Program-made: the position numbers and the translations under genes
In this document: piece after piece, positions 23,582 through 29,555 of the stretch
How the letters are laid out: each line of letters begins with the position of its first letter
Position numbering within the stretch: position 1 is the first letter of the stretch
The notes under the pieces: generated by a model
The model's database searches: none
Told to the model about the DNA's origin: nothing
The model's input: only the letters and a program-made list of their open reading frames with translations
NCBI GenBank assembly: GCA_016744615.1
Contig: JADGEA010000013.1
Coordinates: forward strand, 1-38,325
Direction: 5' to 3'
DNA from: Flavobacteriaceae bacterium
GTDB lineage: Bacteria > Bacteroidota > Bacteroidia > Flavobacteriales > Flavobacteriaceae
Length of the DNA: 38,325 nucleotides

Positions 23582-24310
23582 TTATTTCCAATAATCAGCA
23601 ACCCAAGGTGCTGCTCTCACATATCGATACCACTTTCCTCTCCCTCCTTTAATTGCTTTATGAGGATTTATTTCTCCGTGAAATATTATTATTTTTGATC
23701 CTTTTGGTATTATTGGTTTTTTCCAAAATGCTAATGGAAAACGCGAAACACAATCATATTTAAAACTTGGACACCACTCCTTATCCCAATACTTCAGTTT
23801 ACCCTTGTCATAAATTTCGTGTGTTAGAAACTCTTGTTCATTGCGGTGAATTTTAATAACCTCATCAAAATTTTCTATGAAATCATCAAAAACATATCCG
23901 TGTTTACCAATATCAAATCTATAAACAGAGGAATTTCCGGTGATTCTCCAAGTTCTCCAGCTGTGATCCTTGATAATTCTGAACTCACCATCAACATCGA
24001 AAAAACAATCAATATTATCAACAATAACGATATCAAGATCTAAAAATAATGCACGACCCTTTAATCCGTATAAATCTGATTTTAAAGTAGTAAGCTTTTT
24101 CCACATGCGTTCAGGAAGATTAGAAGGAATATCTATTTCCGGAATTGGATAACACTGAATATCTTTATCAATTCCCTTTTCATCATCCGTAAAGCAAACC
24201 ATTTTAAATTCATACGTTAAATTTTTCTTAACCATTGCATATAACCTGTTTACATATTCGGAACCATATAAAGTTCCCCACTTCATGCAAAAAATATATT
24301 TGTCTGTCAT
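23582..24310 (-). CDS. Glycosyltransferase (GT8-like)
   Basis: The 242-residue protein has a nucleotide-sugar-transferase-like start (YIFCMKWGTLYGSEYVNRLY), the metal-binding DxD motif in ALFLDLDIVIVDN (about 95-107), and a late IIIFHGEINPHKA that resembles the HxGxxKPW-type metal site of GT8 enzymes. No membrane segment is seen, so it should act in the cytoplasm. Donor and acceptor are unknown; no polysaccharide cluster is adjacent. A TAACTTTG -7 box at 24348-24355 precedes it, so it is separate from the aromatic operon. Confidence 0.72.
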   Translation of the reverse strand: MTDKYIFCMKWGTLYGSEYVNRLYAMVKKNLTYEFKMVCFTDDEKGIDKDIQCYPIPEIDIPSNLPERMWKKLTTLKSDLYGLKGRALFLDLDIVIVDNIDCFFDVDGEFRIIKDHSWRTWRITGNSSVYRFDIGKHGYVFDDFIENFDEVIKIHRNEQEFLTHEIYDKGKLKYWDKEWCPSFKYDCVSRFPLAFWKKPIIPKGSKIIIFHGEINPHKAIKGGRGKWYRYVRAAPWVADYWK

Positions 24311-24386: not shown

Positions 24387-25466
24387 TTATCCGTTGATAA
24401 TTTTCTCTTGATGTGCAATTGATTCCTGATGAATTGCCTTAAATATTTTTTCAATAAATCCTTGGGTCAAACCCTGCTCTTCTCCTTTTTCAACCACTTT
24501 TTGTAAAATTTCGTTCCAACGTGTATTTTGTAGTACAGCTACATTACTTTCTTTTTTTGCCTTTCCAATATTCGCAACTATTTGCATTCTTTCTGCCAAA
24601 ATTTCCAATAATTGATCATCTTTTTCATTGATCTCTTTACGAAATGCATTCAATTTTGAAACAGATTCTTCTCTTTCAAAACGTGGTTTTCTCACTTTCA
24701 ATTCTTCCATGATTTCAACCAGACGTACAGGTTTTATTTGCTGACTAGCATCACTCCAGGCATCATCCGGATGACAATGGGTTTCAATCATCAAACCATC
24801 AAATTTAAGATTTAAAGCAGTTTGTGAAACTTCAAAAATCCCTTCTCTATTACCACAAATATGCGATGGATCATTGATAATTGGCAATAAAGGATATTGA
24901 GTTTTCAAATCAATTGGGATTTGCCAACTTGGAATATTTCTGTATTTAGATTTTCTAAAAGATGAAAAACCTCTATGAATCGCACCTAAATTAGTTACTC
25001 CCATTTTATAAAAACGCTCAATAGCACCAATCCATAATGCAGGATCTGGATTAATTGGGTTTTTTACCAAAACAATTTTATCAGTTCCCTGAATTGCATC
25101 TGCAATCTCCTGAACAGCAAAAGGGTTTACAGATGTACGAGCACCAATCCATAAAACATCTACATCAAATTCTAATGCCAGTTTTGCATGTTGTGCATTT
25201 GCAATTTCTACTGCAGTTAACATACCTGTTTCTTCTTTTACTTTTAATAGCCATGGTAAAGCTTTTGCACCATTCCCTTCAAAAGTTCCAGGTCTGGTTC
25301 TAGGCTTCCAAACACCTGCTCTAAAAATTGTGGTATCTGTATTTTTTAATTCATGAGCCACTTCTAATACCTGTTTTTCACTTTCTGCACTACATGGACC
25401 GGCAATTACCAACGGATGATTCAATTCCATCTTATCCAACCATATTCTAAAATTTGTGTTTTCCAT
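24387..25466 (-). CDS. Bifunctional DAHP synthase / chorismate mutase
   Basis: Residues about 15-260 form a type I-beta (KDO8P-synthase-like) DAHP synthase: PLVIAGPCSAESEKQV, FRAGVWKPRTRPGTFEGNG, and metal ligands in IETHCHPDDAWSD. Residues about 268-359 form an AroQ-type chorismate mutase: LNAFRKEINEKDDQLLEILAERM, then IGKAKKE and the helix EKIFKAIHQESI. It catalyses the first shikimate step and the first step towards Phe/Tyr, a fusion that lets prephenate or chorismate feed back on DAHP synthase. It is the last gene of the pheA operon, 4 bp after tyrA. Confidence 0.95.
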   Translation of the reverse strand: MENTNFRIWLDKMELNHPLVIAGPCSAESEKQVLEVAHELKNTDTTIFRAGVWKPRTRPGTFEGNGAKALPWLLKVKEETGMLTAVEIANAQHAKLALEFDVDVLWIGARTSVNPFAVQEIADAIQGTDKIVLVKNPINPDPALWIGAIERFYKMGVTNLGAIHRGFSSFRKSKYRNIPSWQIPIDLKTQYPLLPIINDPSHICGNREGIFEVSQTALNLKFDGLMIETHCHPDDAWSDASQQIKPVRLVEIMEELKVRKPRFEREESVSKLNAFRKEINEKDDQLLEILAERMQIVANIGKAKKESNVAVLQNTRWNEILQKVVEKGEEQGLTQGFIEKIFKAIHQESIAHQEKIING

Positions 25467-25470
25467 CTTT

Positions 25471-26328
25471 CTAATTTGTTTTAATTCCAGCTAAAACCTC
25501 CTTTATGCGATTTGTATTTTCCATCATGGCATAAACATCTTCAACTGATTCGTTTTCAATTATTTGTTTAAATTCGTTTAAATTTTTTATATACTCGTTC
25601 AATGATTTTAATATGGATTCTTTGTTTTGTAAAAATATGGGGGTCCAAGTTGCCGGGTTACTTTTTGCAAGTCTTACCGTAGATGCAAAACCACTACCTG
25701 CCATATTAAAGATACTTTTTTCATCCTTTTCAATTTCTAAAACAGTTTTTCCAAGCATAAAGGAACTGATATGTGATAAATGTGAGACATAGGCAATGTG
25801 TGTATCATGCTGTTTAGCCGATTCCATATACACATTTCTCATTTTCAGATCTTCAAATAAACTACTTGCCCTTTCTACCATTGCTGCACTACTCAAATGT
25901 TGTTCACAAATGATATTTACTTTATCCGTAAAAAGATCATAAATAGCAGCTTCTGGCCCTGAAAATTCAGTACCTGCAATTGGGTGTAATGCTACGAAAT
26001 TTTTCCTTTTCGGATGATCTTTTACTGCCTTGCAAATTCCAACCTTGGTAGATCCAACATCAAATACCAAAGTATTTTCATTGACCAGATCCAACACCTG
26101 GTTTGCTATTATTGGCGCAATATTAACTGGAACAGCAATAATCACTACATCCATATCTTTAACAATATTAATAGTAGCTTTTTTATAGATAATCCCAAGA
26201 TCCAATGCTTTTTGTAAATGCTCTGAGTTTTTATCAATTCCATAAATAGTTGCCCACGAAGTCTTTTTTAACTCTAAAGCCAAAGAACCTCCAATCAATC
26301 CTAATCCGATAACTGCAATTTTTTTCAT
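25471..26328 (-). CDS. tyrA: Prephenate dehydrogenase
   Basis: The 285-residue protein has an N-terminal NAD(P)-binding motif, VIGLGLIGGSLALELKK (about 5-21), and the TyrA block ALHPIAGTEFSGPEAA (about 117-132), where the His is catalytic, then DTHIAYVSHLSHISSFML and MAGSGFASTVRLAKSNP. It oxidatively decarboxylates prephenate to 4-hydroxyphenylpyruvate. Start and preceding stop overlap (ATGA, four bases) with the aminotransferase gene, so translation is coupled. Confidence 0.95.
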   Translation of the reverse strand: MKKIAVIGLGLIGGSLALELKKTSWATIYGIDKNSEHLQKALDLGIIYKKATINIVKDMDVVIIAVPVNIAPIIANQVLDLVNENTLVFDVGSTKVGICKAVKDHPKRKNFVALHPIAGTEFSGPEAAIYDLFTDKVNIICEQHLSSAAMVERASSLFEDLKMRNVYMESAKQHDTHIAYVSHLSHISSFMLGKTVLEIEKDEKSIFNMAGSGFASTVRLAKSNPATWTPIFLQNKESILKSLNEYIKNLNEFKQIIENESVEDVYAMMENTNRIKEVLAGIKTN

Positions 26329-27473
26329 GAGATACGTTTTAATACTTCCTTAATTTTATCTTCTTTTACACAAAGTGAAAACCTAATATAATTATCGCCA
26401 TTACTCCCGAAAATCATGCCCGGTGTAATAAAAACATCTTTATTATATAAAAGGTCATCTGTTAATTCAGTTGCTGATCTCCCTTCAGGGACTTTTGCCC
26501 AAACAAACAAACCAACACTATTTTTATCGTAAACACAATTTAAAACATCACATATTTCCCATACAATTTTACGACGTTCTTTATAAACAGCATTCATCTT
26601 TTCAAACCAATCATTTGACAAATTTAATGCTGCAATTGCCCCCTGCTGAATTCCATAATACATCCCGGAATCCATGTTGCTTTTCACCTGTAAAATATTG
26701 TTGATGTTCTCTTTGCTCCCTAAAACCATACCAACTCTCCAGCCTGCCATATTAAATGTTTTACTTAAAGAATTTAATTCAATAGCAACATCTTTTGCCC
26801 CTTTGTATGCCAAAATACTTTTCGGATTATCATTCAAAACGAAACTATACGGGTTATCATTCACAATCAATATATTGTGTGTTTTTCCAAAAGCAATCAA
26901 CCTTTTGAATAATGCATCCGTTGGAGTTGCTCCTGTTGGCATATGCGGATAATTTACCCACATAATTTTTACTTTCGTTAGATCTGATTTTTCTAATGCT
27001 TCAAAATCAGGAAACCAGTTATTATCTTCATTTAAATCATAAAAAACAGGTTTAGCTTCTACCAAATTGGTAACTGAAGTATAGGTTGGATATCCTGGAT
27101 TCGGAATTAAAACTTCATCTCCAGCATTAAGATATGCCATGGATATATGTAATATTCCTTCTTTTGATCCCATTAATGGAAGGATTTCCGAATTAATATC
27201 AAGATCAGCAACAGTATAATATTTCTTATAAAAATCAGCAATAGACTGTCGGAGTTCAGGCACCCCCTGATAACTTTGGTAACCGTGATTTTGAGTCTGT
27301 TTGGAAGCATTTGCTATTGCATCAATTACCTCCTTGGGAGGAGCCATATCTGGGCTTCCAATACCTAAATTAATGATAGGTTTACCCTGAGCAATCAATT
27401 CTCTAACCTCTCTTAATTTTATTGAAAAGTAGTACTCTTTTACATTATTTAATCTATTTGCTTTCATCCTCAT
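26325..27473 (-). CDS. Class I/II aminotransferase of the aromatic operon
   Basis: The PLP enzyme has about 382 residues. Recognisable are INLGIGSPDMAPP, GYQSYQGVPELRQSIADF, the Asn/Asp/Tyr region IMWVNYPHMPTGATPT and NDNPYSFVL, the PLP Lys in LNSLSKTFNMAGWRVGM, and the C-terminal Arg region NYIRFSLCV. By context it should transaminate phenylpyruvate and 4-hydroxyphenylpyruvate (or arogenate). The longer frame from a TTG at 27503 would overlap pheA by 26 bases; ATG 27473, four bases after the pheA stop, or ATG 27467 fits better. Confidence 0.9.
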   Translation of the reverse strand: MRMKANRLNNVKEYYFSIKLREVRELIAQGKPIINLGIGSPDMAPPKEVIDAIANASKQTQNHGYQSYQGVPELRQSIADFYKKYYTVADLDINSEILPLMGSKEGILHISMAYLNAGDEVLIPNPGYPTYTSVTNLVEAKPVFYDLNEDNNWFPDFEALEKSDLTKVKIMWVNYPHMPTGATPTDALFKRLIAFGKTHNILIVNDNPYSFVLNDNPKSILAYKGAKDVAIELNSLSKTFNMAGWRVGMVLGSKENINNILQVKSNMDSGMYYGIQQGAIAALNLSNDWFEKMNAVYKERRKIVWEICDVLNCVYDKNSVGLFVWAKVPEGRSATELTDDLLYNKDVFITPGMIFGSNGDNYIRFSLCVKEDKIKEVLKRIS

Positions 27474-27477
27474 TTTC

Positions 27478-28311
27478 CTACTTATTTCGTTGGTATTCAC
27501 CAATAATTTTTAAATGTTTTACCTTTTTTTTGATCAAATGCAAAGCATTTTTATACAATTTATAATCATCAATAAGCAAGTCAATAAAAAAAGCATAACT
27601 CCATTTCTTTTTAATAATGGGCATAGATTGTATTTTAGTCATGCTAATTTCATGCTTTGCAAAAATATCTAAAACTTCTGCTAAACTACCTGTCTTGTGT
27701 TTTGTTATAAATTTAATGGACGCCTTATTTTTTACCTGTCCTTTTTTATTCTTAGGCTTCTGAGAGCTTTTTTCTCTGTTTAAAACAAAGAACCTTGTAG
27801 AGTTTTGTTTAATCGTTTGTATATCATCACGAATCACTTCCAGATCATAAATTTCAGCGGCTCTTTTGCTGGCAATTGCTGCTATACCTTTAATTTGTTG
27901 CTCCTGAATTCTTTTAGCAACTTCTGCAGTATCACTTTCTTCTACTAATTTAATATTCGGGTGATCTCTAAAGAATTTTCTACATTGTAAAATAGCCATA
28001 GGGTGCGACCAAACCTCTTTGATATCTTCCAATTTTTGTCCTTTTAAAGCCATTAAATGGTGATGAATATTTAAATAAACCTCTCCTTTTATAGATAGAT
28101 CATATTCATCAATCAAAGCATAGTTGGGTAAAATAGCCCCAGCTATAGAATTTTCAATCGCCATTACCGCACTGTCAACTTCTTTATTTTTAAGCAAAAC
28201 AGGTATTTCAGTAAAAGATAAACACTCACTTAAAGTAATATCTTTTCCAAAAAAATCTTCTGCCACTATATGGTGGAATGAACCTTTTATACCTTGAATT
28301 GCAATTTTCAT
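27478..28311 (-). CDS. pheA: Prephenate dehydratase
   Basis: The 277-residue protein has a catalytic PDT domain (about 1-180) with KIAIQGIKGSFHHIVAEDFF, the ENSIAGAI substrate stretch, and the catalytic TRF motif in NSTRFFVLNR. An ACT regulatory domain (about 195-270) starts SIKFITKHKTGSLAEVLDIF; its GSLAEVL and the IESRP-equivalent IQSMP bind Phe in homologues, giving feedback inhibition. No chorismate mutase is fused here; that activity is in the last gene of the operon. Transcription is predicted to be controlled by the leader peptide and attenuator just upstream (28324-28508). Confidence 0.95.
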   Translation of the reverse strand: MKIAIQGIKGSFHHIVAEDFFGKDITLSECLSFTEIPVLLKNKEVDSAVMAIENSIAGAILPNYALIDEYDLSIKGEVYLNIHHHLMALKGQKLEDIKEVWSHPMAILQCRKFFRDHPNIKLVEESDTAEVAKRIQEQQIKGIAAIASKRAAEIYDLEVIRDDIQTIKQNSTRFFVLNREKSSQKPKNKKGQVKNKASIKFITKHKTGSLAEVLDIFAKHEISMTKIQSMPIIKKKWSYAFFIDLLIDDYKLYKNALHLIKKKVKHLKIIGEYQRNK

Positions 28312-28323
28312 TTTATTTTATTC

Positions 28324-28356
28324 AAAAAAAAAGTCCCGAATTTCTTCGAGACTTTT
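28324..28356 (-). terminator. Attenuator (rho-independent terminator) in the pheA leader
   Basis: On the minus strand AAAAGTCTCGAA (28356-28345), loop GAAA, TTCGGGACTTTT (28340-28329): 12 paired positions, one of them T-G, followed without a break by T to 28324 (nine T after the last C). The pheA ATG is only 12 bases further on, so a terminator here can only serve to stop transcripts before pheA. Its 5' arm is complementary to 28390-28396. Confidence 0.85.
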
Positions 28357-28396
28357 AGGTTATATTTTATTATAATTTTAAATATACACAGTCTCG
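28347..28396 (-). promoter_or_regulatory. Antiterminator stem of the pheA leader
   Basis: Minus-strand CGAGACT (28396-28390) pairs perfectly with AGTCTCG (28353-28347), the 5' arm of the terminator. A second stem inside it, TATATTT (28386-28380) with AAATATA (28367-28361), adds 7 bp. CGAGACT lies within codons 21-23 of the leader ORF and TATATTT at its stop codon, so a ribosome reaching the stop would block both. This is seen in the sequence; the switching is inferred. Confidence 0.75.
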
Positions 28397-28458
28397 CCTT
28401 TATTTGTAAAATAAAAGAAAAAGAAATAACGAGTATAAAAATTATTTGTATTAATCAC
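28378..28458 (-). CDS. Phe/Tyr-rich leader peptide (26 aa) of the pheA operon
   Basis: A GTG start at 28458 opens 26 codons ending in TAA 28378-28380. Six codons are Phe and four Tyr; the centre reads R-Y-F-F-F-F-Y-F, codons 10-17. The ORF begins about 13 bases after the expected transcription start and ends just after the antiterminator's 5' half. When charged Phe or Tyr tRNA is short, a ribosome should stall at codons 11-17, leaving the antiterminator free to form. There is no clear Shine-Dalgarno sequence, as is usual in this phylum, and GTG is the only plausible start because the frame is closed by TAG upstream. Confidence 0.75.
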   Translation of the reverse strand: MINTNNFYTRYFFFFYFTNKGETVYI

Positions 28459-28477
28459 TTTTTTTAATTTATGGCAG

Positions 28478-28508
28478 CAAATCTATACATAAATTTTATA
28501 TTTCCAAA
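28478..28508 (-). promoter_or_regulatory. Promoter of the pheA operon
   Basis: Minus-strand TTTG (28508-28505), exactly 19 bases, TAGATTTG (28485-28478): a full match to the Bacteroidetes TTTG/TAnnTTTG promoter. The predicted transcription start is near 28471, 13 bases before the leader GTG. The rest of the 350-base gap, 28509-28661, is AT-rich and holds two palindromes in front of gldA. Confidence 0.75.
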
Positions 28509-28635: not shown

Positions 28636-28661
28636 CTTTGTCATGTCAAAATTAATTGCAA

Positions 28662-29555
28662 ATGTCGATTCTTGTAGAGAATACAACGAAATTATATGGT
28701 AAACAAAAAGCATTAAATAATGTGAGTTTTGAAATTCCATCTGGTGAAATTGTTGGTTTTTTAGGCCCAAATGGGGCAGGAAAATCAACCATGATGAAAA
28801 TTATTACTGCTTATATTCCAAAAACAGAAGGGAAAGTTTCCGTTAATGGTTTTGATGTTGATAAAGATCCTTTAGAAGTTAAAAGGTCAGTAGGTTATTT
28901 ACCTGAACACAATCCTCTTTACTTGGATCTTTATATTAAAGAATATTTGAAATTTCATGCCTATATTCACAAAGTTACCAAAGAAAGAATTGAAGAAATT
29001 ATTGAACTGGTTGGGCTTACACCCGAGCAACATAAAAAAATAAGTCAGTTATCAAAAGGGTACAGGCAAAGAGTTGGTCTGGCAGCAGCACTTTTGCATG
29101 ATCCCGAGGTTTTAATCTTAGATGAACCAACAACTGGACTAGATCCAAATCAACTGGCAGATATCAGAAACCTTATCAAAGAAATTGGAAAAACAAAAAC
29201 GGTTCTACTTTCTACACACATTATGCAGGAAGTGGAAGCCATGTGTGACAGAGTGATCATCATCAATAAAGGAGAAATAGTTGCCGATAAAAAATTAGAA
29301 GATCTGCTAAAAAATCAGGAGCAGATTATTGAAGTTGAATTTGATCTACTTGTGGAAAAACAATTGTTGCAAAAAATCCCCAATATCAAAACCATTGAAA
29401 ATATTTTTGACAATAAATGGAATTTGACTTTTGACACCAAAAAAGATATGAGGGCTCAAATTTTTGATTTTTCAAAAGATAATGGACTGAGAACATTACT
29501 CTTACATCAAAAAATAAATAGTCTTGAAAATCTATTTTATAACCTAACAAAATAA
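28662..29555 (+). CDS. gldA: Gliding-motility ABC transporter ATP-binding protein GldA
   Basis: The 297-residue ATPase has Walker A GFLGPNGAGKSTMMK (about 33-47), Q-loop YLPEHNPLY, signature LSKGYRQRVGL, Walker B VLILDEPTTGLDP and the switch His in LLSTHIMQEVE. The start SILVENTTKLYGKQKALNN and the whole length match GldA of gliding flavobacteria, which works with the membrane subunits GldF and GldG; these are not in the window. ATG 28662 is chosen over the TTG at 28656. A porin gene follows 7 bp later. A generic ABC exporter ATPase is the alternative. Confidence 0.88.
   Translation: MSILVENTTKLYGKQKALNNVSFEIPSGEIVGFLGPNGAGKSTMMKIITAYIPKTEGKVSVNGFDVDKDPLEVKRSVGYLPEHNPLYLDLYIKEYLKFHAYIHKVTKERIEEIIELVGLTPEQHKKISQLSKGYRQRVGLAAALLHDPEVLILDEPTTGLDPNQLADIRNLIKEIGKTKTVLLSTHIMQEVEAMCDRVIIINKGEIVADKKLEDLLKNQEQIIEVEFDLLVEKQLLQKIPNIKTIENIFDNKWNLTFDTKKDMRAQIFDFSKDNGLRTLLLHQKINSLENLFYNLTK

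Follow-up and report, generated by a model that had tools for sequence, protein, structure and literature searches.

A candidate leader-peptide attenuator of the pheA operon in a Flavobacteriaceae bacterium and its relatives

In enterobacteria, pheA is preceded by a leader region comprising a short Phe-rich open reading frame (ORF) and a terminator with a competing pairing, and the leader attenuators of the Escherichia coli trp, his, thr, and ilv operons share the mechanistic principle of this pheA leader. Among the Bacteroidetes, Bacteroid-trp RNA (RF01692) has been described as a leader of the trp operon (PMC2864571, PMC6414381), and the long 5′ UTRs of Bacteroides thetaiotaomicron have been reported to contain short ORFs resembling leader peptides (PMC7366714). 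A 2021 transcriptome of Flavobacterium psychrophilum identified structured 5′ elements in front of pheA and hisG, which occur in other Flavobacteriaceae genera and have no Rfam hits, and its main text speaks of ‘strong clues’ that amino-acid operons of this species are subject to leader-peptide attenuation (PMC9723704). The same study gives a promoter consensus of TAnnTTTG at −12 to −5 and describes a translation initiation that differs from that based on the Shine-Dalgarno sequence (PMC9723704).

The pheA operon studied here lies on the minus strand of a 38,325-nucleotide stretch of Flavobacteriaceae DNA, which was analysed as a whole and is hereafter called the window. Upstream of the operon is a promoter of the Bacteroidota primary-sigma type, in which TTTG (28508–28505) is followed, after 19 nt, by TAGATTTG (28485–28478); given its position, transcription would be expected to start at about 28473. 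The leader ORF (28458–28378) has 26 codons and a GTG start, and its product, VINTNNFYTRYFFFFYFTNKGETVYI, is encoded with six Phe and four Tyr codons and contains no Trp. Segment 2 (CGAGACT, 28396–28390), the 5′ arm of the antiterminator, is located within the 3′ end of this ORF. Segment 3 (AGTCTCG, 28353–28347) is common to the antiterminator, in which it pairs with segment 2, and to the terminator, in which it pairs with segment 4. An extra antiterminator stem is predicted to form between segment 2b (TATATTT, 28386–28380) and segment 3b (AAATATA, 28367–28361). The intrinsic terminator (28356–28324) consists of a 12-bp stem (28356–28329) and nine T (28332–28324), and 12 nt separate the end of the T-run (28324) from the ATG of pheA (28311). 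It is the only terminator-like site found between 28200 and 28700 (shuffled sequences, mean 0.0). The first-pass annotation had placed the promoter, the leader ORF, both antiterminator stems, the terminator, and the T-run at these coordinates, and all of them match base for base; its count of six Phe and four Tyr codons agrees with the sequence, and the CGAGACT/AGTCTCG complementarity and the extra 7-bp stem that it proposed are present, both stems appearing in the predicted fold.

The predicted structures are those of two mutually exclusive states. For the 56 nt that lack the 3′ arm of the terminator, the predicted fold is exactly the 2:3 helix plus the extra 7-bp stem, with an energy of −10.8 kcal/mol (z = −3.5), and none of 200 shuffled sequences folded as well. 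The terminator piece alone has a predicted energy of −14.3 kcal/mol, which was equaled by one of 200 shuffles, and the predicted fold of the full 80 nt contains the terminator (−15.8 kcal/mol). The features typical of the attenuator class can be compared with this region: a run of end-product codons lies in a short ORF, a terminator lies between this ORF and the first gene, and an antiterminator that excludes the terminator has its 5′ arm inside the ORF, the last according to the fold and to covariation, with the reservations given below for the swap test and the sequence alignment.

Behind the leader, four genes follow on the minus strand. The first, pheA (27478–28311), encodes a prephenate dehydratase recognized by the Pfam PDT domain, with the ACT domain and the best NCBIfam model each just under the cut-off. 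It is followed by genes for a class I/II aminotransferase (26325–27503), a prephenate dehydrogenase (tyrA, 25471–26328; above the NCBIfam cut-off), and a DAHP synthase fused to a type II chorismate mutase (24387–25466; domain search). As listed, the four genes overlap or sit 4 nt apart, with the start of the aminotransferase gene being uncertain: the listed start is TTG, and the true one may be further in. Downstream of the operon, a 242-residue ORF (23582–24310, minus strand) has no Pfam match at E ≤ 0.001. It might be co-read with the operon, since the minus-strand interval that separates it from the DAHP synthase gene contains no terminator-like site. On the other side, the gene of the gliding-motility ABC ATPase GldA (28656–29555, plus strand; above the NCBIfam cut-off) diverges from the pheA leader; its listed start is TTG, and a Met codon lies two codons in.

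To examine relatives, pheA was sought in 60 related genomes (44 matches), 296 genomes of the phylum (258 matches), and 119 genomes of the family (108 matches), and the upstream regions of 200 of the matches were taken for counting. An aromatic leader followed by a terminator is present upstream of pheA in 179 of the 200 Bacteroidota loci, in line with the short Phe/Tyr-rich ORF that the first-pass annotation expected in relatives. Within the genus the count is 17 of 18, the single miss (L017) being a contig end with 44 nt of upstream sequence; it is 127 of 133 in the rest of the family, 7 of 9 in the rest of the order, and 25 of 31 in the rest of the class, which we take to be the Bacteroidia of the GTDB. 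A pheA match was obtained in 33 genomes of the class that lie outside the order, and 31 of these were covered; one family of the order (f5) is represented by one of its six matches (L160, without a leader). Overall, 176 of 191 regions within the class have the leader and the terminator. For other classes, the figure is 3 of 9 in the main set and 3 of 28 with further regions, in a sample hand-picked from 189 matches for a high score or an open frame of ordinary length. In the 19 further regions no aromatic leader was found, the best stretch having 4 aromatic codons of 10, and the pheA start is less sure there. One arbitrary stretch that was no pheA upstream region (L316) was excluded.

The strict leader counts are low because three of the misses (L106, L142, and L191) have an aromatic ORF and match the model R1. 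Another (L192) has an aromatic ORF and no terminator that passes the test. The class loci without a leader include four of the 31, all in one family (f22), in which L057, L058, L161, and L163 lack a leader whereas L174, L175, and L186 have one. These mixed loci offer a case of natural loss and would be useful for comparing other regulation of pheA. A similar test for leader and terminator was passed by 77 of 80 named loci from Lutimonas, Aureibaculum, Tenacibaculum, Polaribacter, Dokdonia, Kordia, Algibacter, Leeuwenhoekiella, and other genera, whose genomes partly overlap the main set; the misses are L216 (44 nt of upstream sequence), L234, and L265. The four operon genes are collinear on one strand and in the same order in 65 of these 80 loci; 12 of the remaining 15 have the first two or three operon genes and 3 have pheA alone.

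Two of the loci examined have unusual arrangements. L265 (JABHSO010000210.1) is filed under a Gammaproteobacteria metagenome-assembled genome and carries, without a leader, a Flavobacteriaceae-like pheA with 55% identity to that of the window; the other three operon genes gave no tblastn match on its contig of 7,689 bases, which is possibly mis-binned. In L159 (G059:C25, approximately 117–383), a single pheA is preceded by two aromatic leaders in tandem (model matches at 139–243 and 274–380), both equipped with a segment 2 and a terminator of their own, and they could perhaps act as a serial attenuator.

A search of the genome of the window with model R1, in which 123 of 7507 first-look candidates were scored, gave one strong match, the pheA leader (E = 2.4e-11), followed by matches with E values of 8.7 and 9.1. 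A blind search across the class with stricter filters gave matches at E ≤ 0.01 in 6 of 148 genomes. Model R1 is too narrow for such a search, and the distribution was therefore drawn from the pheA-anchored regions.

The codons of the leader were compared in the 179 leaders over the ten codons that end with the last aromatic codon. In frame 0, TTT occurs 579 times and TTC 249 times, with TTA at 2 and TTG at 0; TAT, TAC, and TGG occur 342, 145, and 87 times, respectively, and there is no stop among the 1790 codons. In the other two frames of the same stretch, TTA occurs 185 and 299 times and stops occur 3 and 197 times. Selection of the loci required five or more aromatic codons in ten, a criterion that favors frame 0 but would not on its own eliminate TTA. 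As judged from these counts, the leader reading frame is kept by evolution. The start codon is ATG in 174 of the detected leaders and GTG in 5, with a detection that prefers ATG among equal choices, and the GTG of the window’s leader is aligned with the ATG of its relatives in the genus alignment. The last aromatic codon is followed by segment 2 at a median distance of 10 nt (5–95% range, 7–14; 162 loci), and the median distance to the end of the stop codon is 27 nt (179 loci). Farther upstream, 161 of 179 loci, vs. 8 of 173 control stretches, have the box TAnnTT[TAC]G no more than 55 nt before the start of the leader, and its median distance from the start is 18 nt.

Near-identical leaders were compared among L001–L080, using pairs that differ by 1–3 nt in the last eight codons. 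Of 235 base differences, 169 are nonsynonymous. The 178 codon changes comprise 66 synonymous ones, 60 between aromatic residues (48 Phe-Tyr and 12 Phe-Trp), 25 from an aromatic to another residue, and 27 between other residues. Since so many codon changes are nonsynonymous, amino acid identity appears to be only loosely kept in the leader.

Covariation was evaluated separately for the two competing helices. Alignment A1 (MAFFT) contains 149 of the 179 leaders; of the 30 dropped, 24 are near-duplicates, and L172, L175, L178, L179, L188, and L193 were left out for insertions, as judged by eye. In these 149 rows, 98.2% of the cells of the 3:4 terminator helix are paired and all 7 pairs show two-sided changes. 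The number of two-sided cells is 93, vs. 22.1 in shuffled alignments and at most 17 when the helix is slid, so the covarying 3:4 stem predicted in the first-pass annotation is indeed found in relatives. A1 was tried for the 2:3 helix and set aside: segment 2 is misplaced by one base in many rows (69.6% of cells paired in register and 62.4% when shifted by one column), and A1 was used for the 3:4 helix only.

For the 2:3 antiterminator helix, alignment A4 drew on 100 of the 200 upstream loci, disjoint from the 26 loci used for the model; 91 of these loci gave matches at E ≤ 0.09 and contributed 92 rows (L159 twice). In A4, 90.7% of the cells of this helix are paired and all seven pairs show two-sided changes. 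There are 97 two-sided cells, vs. 23.8 in shuffled and at most 28 in slid versions, and the covariation score is 0.516, vs. at most 0.137 when slid; this strong count was obtained on an alignment that had been fitted to the model and is biased in its favor. In a sequence alignment of 26 relatives, pairing at 2:3 is also high (92.3%, vs. at most 39.6% when slid) and the covariation signal is weak, with 3 two-sided cells and two slid versions having 6. All of these cell counts refer to sequences and not to independent events. An alignment-free swap test compared the pairing of each segment 2 with its own segment 3 and with the segments 3 of loci differing at 3 or more of the 8 bases. The own partner is better than the mean swap in 159 of 178 loci and exceeds 95% of these distant swaps in only 61 of them, the modest latter figure being perhaps due to many segments being alike and to G-U pairs being allowed. 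The covarying 2:3 stem expected from the first-pass annotation is thus found on the model-fitted alignment and is backed by the swap test. Segment 3 thus shows covariation with two alternative partners, a hallmark of a switch. The swaps favor a classical 1:2 protector stem only weakly: its own pairing is stronger than the mean swap in 109 of 162 loci and beats 95% of swaps in 31. A hairpin between the aromatic codons and the purine-rich spacer is weakly favored (94 of 151 by swaps).

Collectively, the conserved ORF, the covarying terminator, and the covarying antiterminator support the attenuator proposed in the first-pass annotation. Very probably, this region would act as a leader-peptide transcription attenuator of the pheA operon that senses the supply of charged tRNA-Phe and tRNA-Tyr. 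From the promoter, the ORF, the two exclusive helices, their conservation, and the operon as read in the DNA, we infer the start site, ribosome occupancy, stalling, termination, and read-through as follows. Transcription would begin near 28473, and a ribosome would follow the polymerase into the leader ORF. With ample Phe and Tyr, the ribosome would reach the end of the ORF and cover segment 2, which lies inside the ORF and would be within the usual footprint of a ribosome at the stop codon. Segment 3 would then pair with segment 4, and the polymerase would stop at 28324, yielding an RNA of approximately 150 nt. When Phe- or Tyr-tRNA is scarce, the ribosome would stall in the aromatic codons, leaving segment 2, about 10 nt downstream, open to pair with segment 3 with the help of the second 7-bp stem; no terminator would form, and the operon would be transcribed. 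This scheme assumes ribosome-polymerase coupling in this phylum, and none of the entries listed by the literature search on such coupling was specific to Bacteroidota.

Identical RNA parts would be employed by an arrest peptide, in which a ligand such as free Phe, free Tyr, or an aromatic metabolite stalls the ribosome through the nascent chain in the tunnel and so frees segment 2. The constant distance of the aromatic stretch from segment 2 fits such a peptide as well. No residue, however, is fixed: F and Y are both found at every offset of the stretch, F-Y and F-W exchanges make up 60 of the 178 codon changes, and the N-terminal part of the leaders is variable. The loose identity among aromatic residues therefore fits a joint aromatic sensor better than a fixed-residue arrest peptide, which is considered improbable. 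Still less probable is a constitutive or non-peptide attenuator that answers to a small molecule, a protein, or polymerase speed, with the ORF being incidental. A terminator and an antiterminator alone would allow this, and 5′ elements without leader peptides exist, but the ORF accompanies the terminator in 179 of 200 loci, vs. 0 of 597 Markov-shuffled pheA upstream regions that pass the same test, and the codon bias is specific to the leader frame. Moreover, the window contains no match at gathering score to any Rfam family, including riboswitches and the T-box.

The leader could also be a chance product, i.e., a U-rich tract of an AT-rich intergenic region that reads as Phe and Tyr by accident, next to the ordinary terminator of an upstream transcript, given that TTT and TAT codons arise readily where DNA is AT-rich. 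A survey of 10–45-residue ORF readings of the window, with each start codon counted (n = 697 on the plus and 829 on the minus strand), showed that at least five aromatic codons in ten occur in 40 plus-strand and 34 minus-strand readings. Yet the pheA leader is the sole reading with a terminator 15–120 nt after the aromatic stretch, and chance is excluded by the conservation of leader and terminator and by the covariation across the class, its residual probability being negligible.

The tRNA-sensing attenuator may extend beyond Phe and Tyr in relatives. Of the 179 leaders, 102 contain at least one Trp, and so do 99 of the 174 distinct peptides; the leaders were detected with a density test that treats W as aromatic and is biased towards finding it. 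Of 104 Trp residues, 103 lie within the aromatic block, at offsets of −12 to 0, and Trp is placed differently in the leaders of different families. With Trp in 102 leaders, relatives may sense all three aromatic amino acids; this is put forward as a suggestion, because the detection of the stretch already treated W as aromatic and genomes of relatives are not independent samples. Such a three-aromatic readout would make sense, since the operon encodes the first enzyme of the common aromatic pathway. Tentatively, a single class-wide leader, with Phe and Tyr codons in almost all of its members, might read Phe, Tyr, and Trp jointly, with read-through as its default when the leader is not translated, a reading that we hold to be possible and rather doubtful. 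This default, proposed because a 1:2 stem is only weakly favored, would be opposite to that of the enterobacterial leaders. If this reading were true, its wide presence would imply close ribosome-polymerase coupling in a phylum without Shine-Dalgarno-based initiation.

Other amino acid operons of the same genome were inspected. A Bacteroid-trp leader scores above the Rfam cut-off at G000:C260:12549–12663 on the minus strand (L294), with the peptide MKIQKLNTWWWSLRNSNS and a terminator. Upstream of hisG (G000:C194; L297, 1195–1313), an ORF at 1195–1263, translated by eye as MTKIKLHHHHFHTCTQARVDDM, is followed by the inverted repeat AAACCCGTTTGA...TCAAACGGGTTT and then a T-run before hisG. No leader was seen in the region upstream of ilvD. 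Together with the trp and his leaders, the pheA leader adds evidence for general leader-peptide attenuation in a phylum whose promoters and start-site recognition are unusual. For an element on most of the class pheA operons examined, it provides a model at sequence level in which both helices covary, and it points to a means by which these bacteria may adjust their synthesis of aromatic amino acids. It could also serve as a natural reporter to probe transcription-translation coupling in the phylum.

The structured 5′ element reported upstream of pheA in F. psychrophilum (PMC9723704) is most likely the element described here. The first-pass annotation knew of no description of such attenuation for this operon in Flavobacteriia; that holds for the leader sequence and the helices, which do not appear in the main-text section of that paper, and not for the element itself, which had already been named there. 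The same section gives neither covariation nor a wider range, which its supplement may contain. A fuller description was not found in a literature search that lay mostly outside subscription papers.

When the window was compared with the Rfam leader families, as the first-pass annotation had advised, none reached its gathering score, and all matches of a loose search were sub-threshold. Among the latter, the enterobacterial Phe_leader (RF01859) scored 26.3 bits (E = 0.017), vs. a gathering score of 55. Like Phe_leader, the flavobacterial element is located upstream of pheA and has a short Phe-rich ORF and a terminator with a competing pairing. Unlike Phe_leader, it mixes Phe and Tyr, with Trp in many relatives, it heads a four-gene operon with tyrA and DAHP synthase, and its 1:2 stem is only weakly favored by the swaps. 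With Bacteroid-trp RNA it shares the phylum and a leader with a terminator; however, that RNA precedes the trp operon, and it gives no match at the pheA site (gathering score, 49 bits). From the E. coli leaders, whose mechanistic principle it would share, the flavobacterial element differs in lineage, sequence, promoter type, and start-site recognition. The principle of attenuation has thus long been known, and its pheA version is common to most of the related genomes examined and lies outside the Rfam families.
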